A stretch of 63,665 nt of DNA from the NCBI GenBank assembly GCA_013821605.1, contig JACDGP010000014.1, positions 1 through 63,665 on the forward strand. The letters are read 5' to 3'. The notes below the pieces were generated by a model. It saw only the letters and a program-made list of their open reading frames with translations, was not told the DNA's origin and did not search any database. Positions 38,174-39,646 of this stretch are shown here, in pieces. Numbering within the stretch: the stretch's first letter is position 1; every line of letters begins with the position of its first letter. Source of the DNA: Herpetosiphonaceae bacterium. GTDB lineage: Bacteria; Chloroflexota; Chloroflexia; Chloroflexales; Kallotenuaceae. A program made the position numbers and the translations under genes.

Positions 38174-38202
38174 TCTAGCCACTGACACAGGAGATGTGCA
38201 AC

Positions 38203-38694
38203 ATGACCGAGAACAAGCCGGAACACGGCCTACCGCTGGGATCACCTGCTCCCGATTTTACGCTGCTTGCGGTTGGCGGGCAGACGGTATCGTCCGCACA
38301 ATTTCGTGACCGGCAACCGGTCGTCGTGGTATTTTATCGTGGCTGGTGGTGACCGCACTGCAACCAGCAGATGAGCCAGTTGGCTCATGAGTATCAACGT
38401 TTCCTAGAGGCGGGCGTGGCGCTCTTGATGGTCAGTGTCGATAGCATACGCCGAGCAACAGAGCTTGCGCGGACAGCATTCGCCCCATTTCCGGTGCTTG
38501 CTGATCGAGATGCGGACGCGACGGTCGCTTTCAACGTCTTTGAGAATGGTATTGCCCTACCAAGCACATTTGTGATCGACAAAGCTGGCACGCTCCGCTG
38601 GAGCTATATCGGCCAAAATCCTAAGGATCGGCCCACTATCGCGACGATGCTTGACCAGGCGCGCATCGTCGCAGGTCCATCTGCAGCAGCATAA
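38203..38694 (+). CDS. Probable selenocysteine-containing peroxiredoxin (TGA at the peroxidatic position)
   Basis: 163 residues if TGA is read as Sec. ATG at 38203 follows AGGAG by 8-9 bases. The N-terminus GSPAPDFTLLAVGG is a normal AhpC/TSA start, and the active-site strand reads VVVVFYRGWW, TGA (38350-38352), PHCNQQMSQL. Relatives have FYRGxWCPYC, so the TGA stands exactly where the peroxidatic Cys belongs, leaving a UxxC motif. The frame stays open and conserved beyond it (LLMVSVDSIRRATELA, LPSTFVIDKAGTLRW). A hairpin of bacterial SECIS type lies 19-36 bases after the TGA. It would reduce peroxides. The alternative is a TGC/TGT-to-TGA mutation, making it a pseudogene. Automatic callers would start at 38371. 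Confidence 0.82.
38371..38388 (+). promoter_or_regulatory. Candidate bacterial SECIS element
   Basis: ATGAGCC (38371-38377) pairs perfectly with GGCTCAT (38382-38388) around the loop AGTT. The loop starts 25 nt after the TGA and has G in its second position. Both fit the published rule for bacterial SECIS hairpins (loop 16-37 nt from UGA, G among the first two loop bases). Confidence 0.7.
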
Positions 38695-38703
38695 TTGCCA
38701 GGT

Positions 38704-39147
38704 TTACTCGTGTTTTGCCAAGCTACGCACATTGCCGAGGCAACAAGCACCCTGCGGGTTCCGAAGATCACAGGCACATTGTCCGGCCTGAATGCCTACC
38801 ATTATGTCAACGATGATAGCTTGACGATCAGCGAGGGTCGCCATGTGGATGTCACCGACTGTGTGACGAAAGCAATAACAGGCCCAGACCGTTGGATCGG
38901 TAGGCACCTTTTGATAGACACGTTCCCGGAGTTGGTCCGTTGTGAAGTGGTGGGAGTGATCGGCCGCAAAGTAGACAACGCGACAGGTGGGTGTTGGGCA
39001 AAATAGATAGGGACCGTCAGCGACCTCGCGCAGACTCGCTGCTAGCAGCGCCTTGACGGTTTGCCCTGAAACGGCTTTGCCTTGATGGTGACAGGAAGCA
39101 CATATCGCAGCAGGAAGCTGTGGGAGACCAGCATACATTTCAGCCAC
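38704..39147 (-). CDS. CopZ-like iron-sulfur metallochaperone
   Basis: 147 aa from a GTG at 39147 with AGGAG eight bases upstream, overlapping the merR stop by eight bases. The layout matches the N-terminal domain of Archaeoglobus-type CopZ: CASCHHQGKAV, a helix, LFCPTPTCRVVYF, then ACYCFRHTVGDI and, near the C-terminus, CACDLRNPQGACCLGNV. These cysteines would hold a zinc ion and a [2Fe-2S] cluster. The usual C-terminal HMA copper domain is absent. Co-transcription with a metal-sensing MerR suggests handling of copper, mercury or another thiophilic metal. It is convergent with the selenoperoxiredoxin candidate. Confidence 0.8.
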   Translation of the reverse strand: MAEMYAGLPQLPAAICASCHHQGKAVSGQTVKALLAASLREVADGPYLFCPTPTCRVVYFAADHSHHFTTDQLRERVYQKVPTDPTVWACYCFRHTVGDIHMATLADRQAIIVDIMVGIQAGQCACDLRNPQGACCLGNVRSLAKHE

Positions 39148-39589
39148 GTGATTGCTCCTCTGGCTGATGGCTGGCGTCGTGGAACGTAGGATAGGCCTTT
39201 AGCAGGGCACATATACACTGCTCACCGAGCACATCATCTTGTGGAAGAGTTACACCCTCAGCAAGAAGCTCTGCCAGGGTAGTTCGGAGGCTAAGTAGAT
39301 CGGCAATGCGATGATCTACGTCGCTCAGATGGCGGGCGAGTGCCGCGAGAACATGCCCGCAGGGTGCCTCTCCACTATCCCGAGCGCGCTGGATCTCAGC
39401 AACATCCACGAGTGGCAAGCCAACGCTACGTGATCCCGCTATTAAGCGGAGCCGATCCACATCTCGGGCACTATACATCCGGTAGTTGTTTGGTCCGCGA
39501 TGGGGCGCCGGTAGCAAGCCGATGGTTTCGTAGTAGCGGATAGTTTTAGCCGGTACACCGGCCAACTGTGCAAGTTCCTGAATGAGCAT
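39140..39589 (-). CDS. MerR family metal-responsive regulator
   Basis: 149 aa from the ATG at 39589, nine bases after AGAGGG; upstream codons fall inside the promoter. The winged HTH is LIQELAQLAGVPAKTIRYYE, then TIGLLPAPHRGPNNYRMYSA. A long dimerisation helix follows. Cysteines at GEAPCGHVL and, at the C-terminal end, EQCICALLK are placed as metal ligands in the manner of MerR/CueR-like sensors. It probably activates its own operon (merR plus the CopZ-like gene) by untwisting the 19-bp-spaced promoter upstream. Which metal is sensed cannot be decided. Confidence 0.9.
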   Translation of the reverse strand: MLIQELAQLAGVPAKTIRYYETIGLLPAPHRGPNNYRMYSARDVDRLRLIAGSRSVGLPLVDVAEIQRARDSGEAPCGHVLAALARHLSDVDHRIADLLSLRTTLAELLAEGVTLPQDDVLGEQCICALLKAYPTFHDASHQPEEQSRG

Positions 39590-39615
39590 GACGTATTCCC
39601 TCTTTAGCCTGCCAT

Positions 39616-39646
39616 ACTGTACACGTTCCAGTGACTGGAAGGTCAA
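39616..39646 (-). promoter_or_regulatory. MerR-type promoter with 19-bp spacer and palindromic operator
   Basis: Minus strand: -35 TTGACC (39646-39641), 19-bp spacer, -10 TACAGT (39621-39616). The spacer holds TTCCAGT-C-ACTGGAA (15-bp palindrome, 39640-39626). The long spacer and the central palindrome are the hallmark of promoters that MerR proteins remodel. Confidence 0.82.

Follow-up and report, generated by a model that had tools for sequence, protein, structure and literature searches.

Selenocysteine (Sec)-containing peroxiredoxins, which carry a TxxU motif, are kept apart in the literature from the 'Prx-like' selenoproteins, which carry a thioredoxin-like UxxC motif (PMC1088965). The TxxU proteins are the true selenoperoxiredoxins (PMC13188914, PMC1088965). 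The Prx-like proteins are classed as thiol:disulfide oxidoreductases of pfam00578 with UxxC or UxxU motifs (PMC9312934, PMC13188914), and this activity is itself a prediction, albeit one 'predicted with high confidence' (PMC13188914). In the GOS survey, UxxC sequences number 225 and are named 'Prx-like 1' (PMC2398784). A 2006 count of Chloroflexi selenoproteins arrived at three proteins in three families (PMC1794560), and the Chloroflexales are not named for the Prx-like UxxC family in PMC1088965, PMC2398784, PMC9312934 or PMC13188914.

Here we describe a gene from a Herpetosiphonaceae bacterium that resembles the Prx-like UxxC selenoproteins. It lies in a stretch of 63,665 nucleotides of contig JACDGP010000014.1, the whole of which is called the window below. 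The features held in common with the family are a pfam00578 domain, Sec in a UxxC motif that stands in place of TxxC or TxxU, the existence of CxxC homologues and a SECIS element directly after the UGA codon (PMC1088965, PMC2398784, PMC9312934, PMC13188914). No difference was found when the gene was judged by the published sequence criteria of the family. The enzyme family has been known since 2005, and the gene adds a member to it.

As in the selenoperoxiredoxins (Prx/PrxU, PxxxTxxU), the window protein has a peroxiredoxin fold and Sec in the active-site turn. However, its Sec precedes theirs by three residues and takes the position of the Thr, and the protein lacks both the Pro of the motif and the catalytic Arg. 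It scores 40.9 bits with the PrxU model of NCBIfam, for which the cut-off is 270. Its best NCBIfam match is to the SelL/SelL-related (UxxU) proteins (NF040769), but the 63.1 bits obtained fall below the cut-off of 120, and the window protein has one Sec rather than two. A SelL-like UxxU homologue (UPTU) is found in another genome of the same class, where two in-frame TGA codons have one common hairpin.

The gene and its reading frame

There is one in-frame TGA codon in the gene, at residue 50. When it is read as Sec, translation yields MTENKPEH...VVVVFYRGWWUPHCNQQ...SAAA*, a protein of 163 residues, and no other lesion is present. A first-pass annotation of this DNA had described a frame that is intact on both sides of a single TGA, and the translation agrees. 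It had also anticipated that standard gene callers would miss the start of the gene. Indeed, the standard-code list of open reading frames (ORFs) gives only 38371-38694 (107 amino acids, start ATG 38371), and residues 1-56 are lost to a plain ORF caller. The Pfam AhpC-TSA domain extends over residues 13-133, across the TGA, with 108.2 bits against a cut-off of 26.

Table 1. Features of the selenoprotein gene in the window
Feature	Position	Strand	Remarks and basis
Selenoprotein gene, Prx-like UxxC, AhpC/TSA family	38203..38694	+	163 codons and TAA stop
GGAG, probable ribosome binding site	38190..38193	+	9 nt before ATG; by reading the sequence
Arg46 codon, aligned with the Pro of the peroxiredoxin motif	38338..38340	+	alignments
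TGA codon for Sec50, aligned with the Thr/Ser of the peroxiredoxin motif	38350..38352	+	homologue and AhpE alignments
TGC, Cys53, second residue of UxxC, peroxidatic Cys column	38359..38361	+	alignments
SECIS hairpin AUGAGCC-AGUU-GGCUCAU	38371..38388	+	folding, covariation over 18 Sec genes, absence in Cys homologues
Pro120 codon, at the place of the peroxiredoxin catalytic Arg	38560..38562	+	alignments

No conserved neighbourhood was seen at the selenoprotein gene when the window was compared with the same-family relative. The gene upstream, which encodes a Type ISP restriction-methylase, stops 29 bp short of it and is absent there in the relative. A convergent pair of genes on the minus strand (38704-39646), encoding a CopZ zinc-domain protein and a MerR-type regulator, adjoins the selenoprotein gene, with no link shown between them.

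Position of selenocysteine in the active site

The first-pass annotation had placed the TGA at the peroxidatic cysteine of a peroxiredoxin. This placement is contradicted by alignment to the AhpE and Bcp structures, wherein the Thr/Ser of PxxxTxxC is matched by residue 50 and the peroxidatic Cys by Cys53. Instead of the canonical PxxxT/SxxC or PxxxT/SxxU motif, the window protein has R-GWW-U-PH-C, with Arg46 for Pro and Sec50 for Thr/Ser. Where AhpE and the SxxC homologues have the canonical catalytic Arg after the motif, the window protein has Pro120.

Column 53 is Cys or Sec in all 36 homologues (alignment A2; invariant with Sec written as C). Column 50 is occupied by U, C, S or T, and thus Cys does stand at the TGA column in homologues, as the first-pass annotation had expected. 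The 36 homologues fall into two residue sets. In the first set, which has 27 representatives including the window gene, Arg46 and Cys53 are combined with U or C at position 50 and with Pro or Gly at position 120. In the remaining nine, position 46 is not Arg (six have Pro), position 50 is Ser or Thr, position 53 is Cys or Sec, and position 120 is the Arg that corresponds to the catalytic residue of peroxiredoxins. Not one homologue mixes the two sets. Three members of the second set belong to the same class and carry SxxU or TxxU; in these, Sec occupies the true peroxidatic position and the catalytic Arg is kept. As these alignments have it, a single superfamily has Sec at one active-site position in some members and at a second position in others.

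An AlphaFold2 model made from the 36-row alignment (pLDDT 94.3) has a complete peroxiredoxin fold and is closest to Bcp4 (Z 25.4) and to AhpE of Mycobacterium tuberculosis (Z 24.6, over 150 residues). The name 'peroxiredoxin' given in the first-pass annotation therefore fits the fold and not the catalytic signature, in which the motif Pro, Thr/Ser and Arg are replaced; AhpE has its Thr and Arg where the window protein has Sec50 and Pro120. The CPHC motif of the ResA-type thiol-disulfide oxidoreductases aligns with the UPHC of the window protein. In contrast to membrane-linked ResA, no obvious N-terminal signal is apparent in the window protein when it is read by eye.

One alternative is that the protein is a Sec-dependent peroxidase, wherein either Cys53 or Sec50 attacks peroxide and the other resolves via a Se-S bond. 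The complete fold, with Bcp4 and AhpE nearest, the match to Pfam AhpC-TSA and the location of Cys53 in the peroxidatic column all favour such an enzyme. However, the active-site Pro, Thr/Ser and Arg correspond to Arg46, Sec50 and Pro120, and those homologues that keep the Arg also keep S or T at position 50, never U or C. This causes us to regard a dedicated peroxidase as unlikely, while some peroxidase activity is possible given Cys53 in the peroxidatic column. It seems rather improbable that Sec50 and Cys53 would both take part in peroxide chemistry, with a Se-S bond formed within one turn of an active site unlike that of the PxxxTxxC enzymes.

Predicted decoding of the TGA codon

Bacterial SECIS elements have a small apical loop with a guanosine and are located directly after the UGA codon (PMC1088965). 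The window hairpin fits this description, having a small apical loop with G directly 3' of the UGA. It begins 18 nucleotides after the TGA and includes the internal ATG at 38371. The stem is formed by 38371-38377 with 38382-38388, and the AGUU loop (38378-38381) is located 25 nucleotides after the UGA. Folded alone, the hairpin is only moderately unusual (z of -2.45 for 43 nucleotides and -1.08 for 54 nucleotides). The assignment as SECIS was decided by comparative evidence.

The covariation set comprises 18 Sec genes that share the offset of the loop and its sequence, (A/G)GUU; they were selected by loop and not by stem. Over these genes 94.4% of the stem cells are paired, and compensatory change on both sides is found in six of the seven stem pairs. 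Cells changed on both sides number 20, compared with 4.9 in shuffles, and the covariation score was reached by none of 500 shuffles. Slid controls are at most 51% paired, and RNAalifold recovers this stem without guidance. The 18 leave out two genes whose loop matched but whose stem was poor; when they are put back (n=20), the six inner pairs hold in 17 to 20 of the 20 genes. The corresponding place in Cys homologues forms only between 0 and 5 of the 7 pairs. The candidate SECIS containing ATG 38371 that was named in the first-pass annotation is thus borne out by a covarying stem that Cys homologues lack. A search of the window with Rfam at gathering thresholds found tRNA-Ser alone.

The first-pass annotation had also asked whether the genome holds the genes for Sec synthesis and insertion. 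The genome (5.88 Mb in 259 contigs, 99.6% complete) has selA, selB, tRNA-Sec (selC, anticodon TCA) and selD, all over curated cut-offs, which confirms the Sec machinery. There are two further selenoproteins in the genome, SelD (CAGUAAK) and a formate dehydrogenase (ARIUHSSS) whose gene sits on the tRNA-Sec contig. Each of these two genes (selD and fdhG) has a hairpin after its TGA that is comparable to the window hairpin, with G-U in the loop. The contigs with Sec machinery and selenoprotein genes fit the window in GC content and in their use of tetranucleotides, and a contaminated bin was rejected on this match. Among the five other genomes of the family, selA is found in four and tRNA-Sec also in four.

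The best homologue outside the genome is found in a same-family metagenome-assembled genome, G421, on a contig that matches JADDQE01. It is 54-56% identical over 154 residues, a likeness well above what chance would give, has TGA at the same codon and retains Cys53. Changes between the two genes at codon positions 1/2/3 number 17/13/33 upstream of the TGA (49 codons) and 31/23/55 downstream (104 codons), which is a third-position excess of substitutions on both sides. The tree joins the window gene to this relative (support 100/94), and its deeper placement is weak (54/74). There is a second gene copy in G421 that keeps the TGA and has a frameshift after residue 73, which makes it either a pseudogene or an assembly error.

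A scan of genome contigs gave matches with an alignment of five homologues as query. The scan with a single protein gave no match, probably because the active-site pattern needs Cys codons and other patterns are too specific. TGA or Cys is found at the residue-50 column in homologues from Chloroflexota, Acidobacteria, Myxococcota, Verrucomicrobia and others, in a locus set that is enriched for TGA forms and whose TGA and Cys counts are therefore not frequencies. The plasmid collection has only homologues of less than 60% identity. None of the Cys orthologues found exceeded about 40%, which is too distant to date a switch between Cys and Sec.

Two other groups of homologues were observed. Fourteen loci with genes from the same order form a well supported clade that encodes a Sec protein of 180-190 residues with RIVSDRFFUP(H/N)C, and one of these loci has a Cys copy and a Sec copy side by side. 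There are 13 homologues from Poribacteria in a single clade with UPNS (UxxS), in which Sec is retained and the partner Cys is replaced by Ser. PMC13188914 already includes a UxxS family of AhpC/TSA proteins.

If the TGA were a nonsense mutation in what used to be a Cys gene, with the ORF from ATG 38371 left by chance, this would agree with a plain ORF list that shows the downstream 107 amino acids only. However, there is no other lesion, substitutions are in third-position excess on both sides of the TGA, the TGA is common to G421, the SECIS covaries and the Sec machinery is full, all of which makes a pseudogene highly improbable. It is just as difficult to credit two separate proteins, a 49-residue product that ends at the TGA and a 107-residue product that starts at the in-frame ATG at 38371, when the SECIS stem begins with that very ATG, either piece would have only half of the fold, and a single domain runs across the TGA in both the model and the Pfam match. 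A sequencing or assembly error that hides a true TGC or TGT is the least credible explanation, even with Cys as the other common residue at column 50, since TGA occupies this codon in two gene copies from another genus of the family, assembled independently, and the gene has a hairpin that Cys homologues lack.

Predicted function and significance

By all computational tests available, the prediction that the TGA encodes Sec is well supported. The Sec machinery, the shared TGA, the covarying SECIS and the intact frame sustain the claim of an unannotated selenoprotein gene with which the first-pass annotation began. We consider it quite probable that the product is a 163-residue, SECIS-decoded UxxC selenoprotein that functions as a thiol:disulfide oxidoreductase of the known Prx-like kind, with a chemistry deduced from its active site.

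In the predicted mechanism, SelB with GTP and Sec-tRNA-Sec would bind the hairpin just after the UGA, and the ribosome would read the UGA as Sec. The resulting protein would have a peroxiredoxin fold with a thioredoxin-like active site, Sec50-Pro-His-Cys53. Perhaps Sec50 serves as the attacking selenolate with Cys53 as its partner, such that the enzyme would cycle between the selenol/thiol form and a Se-S bond. The motif suggests a thiol:disulfide oxidoreductase that might be recharged by thioredoxin or a similar donor. Disulfide reduction appears to be the likelier job because the protein has lost the Pro, Thr and Arg that bind peroxide and has Pro at position 120.

The gene is a clean example of how standard ORF calling can trim a selenoprotein gene, here by a third. 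The covarying AGUU hairpin across Chloroflexota relatives could help in finding more such genes. In addition, the residue rule that sets UxxC/CxxC with Arg46 and Pro/Gly120 against S/TxxC/U with Arg120 may separate members of the disulfide-reductase type from those of the peroxidase type. The finding corrects the place of selenium in this branch of the peroxiredoxin superfamily.
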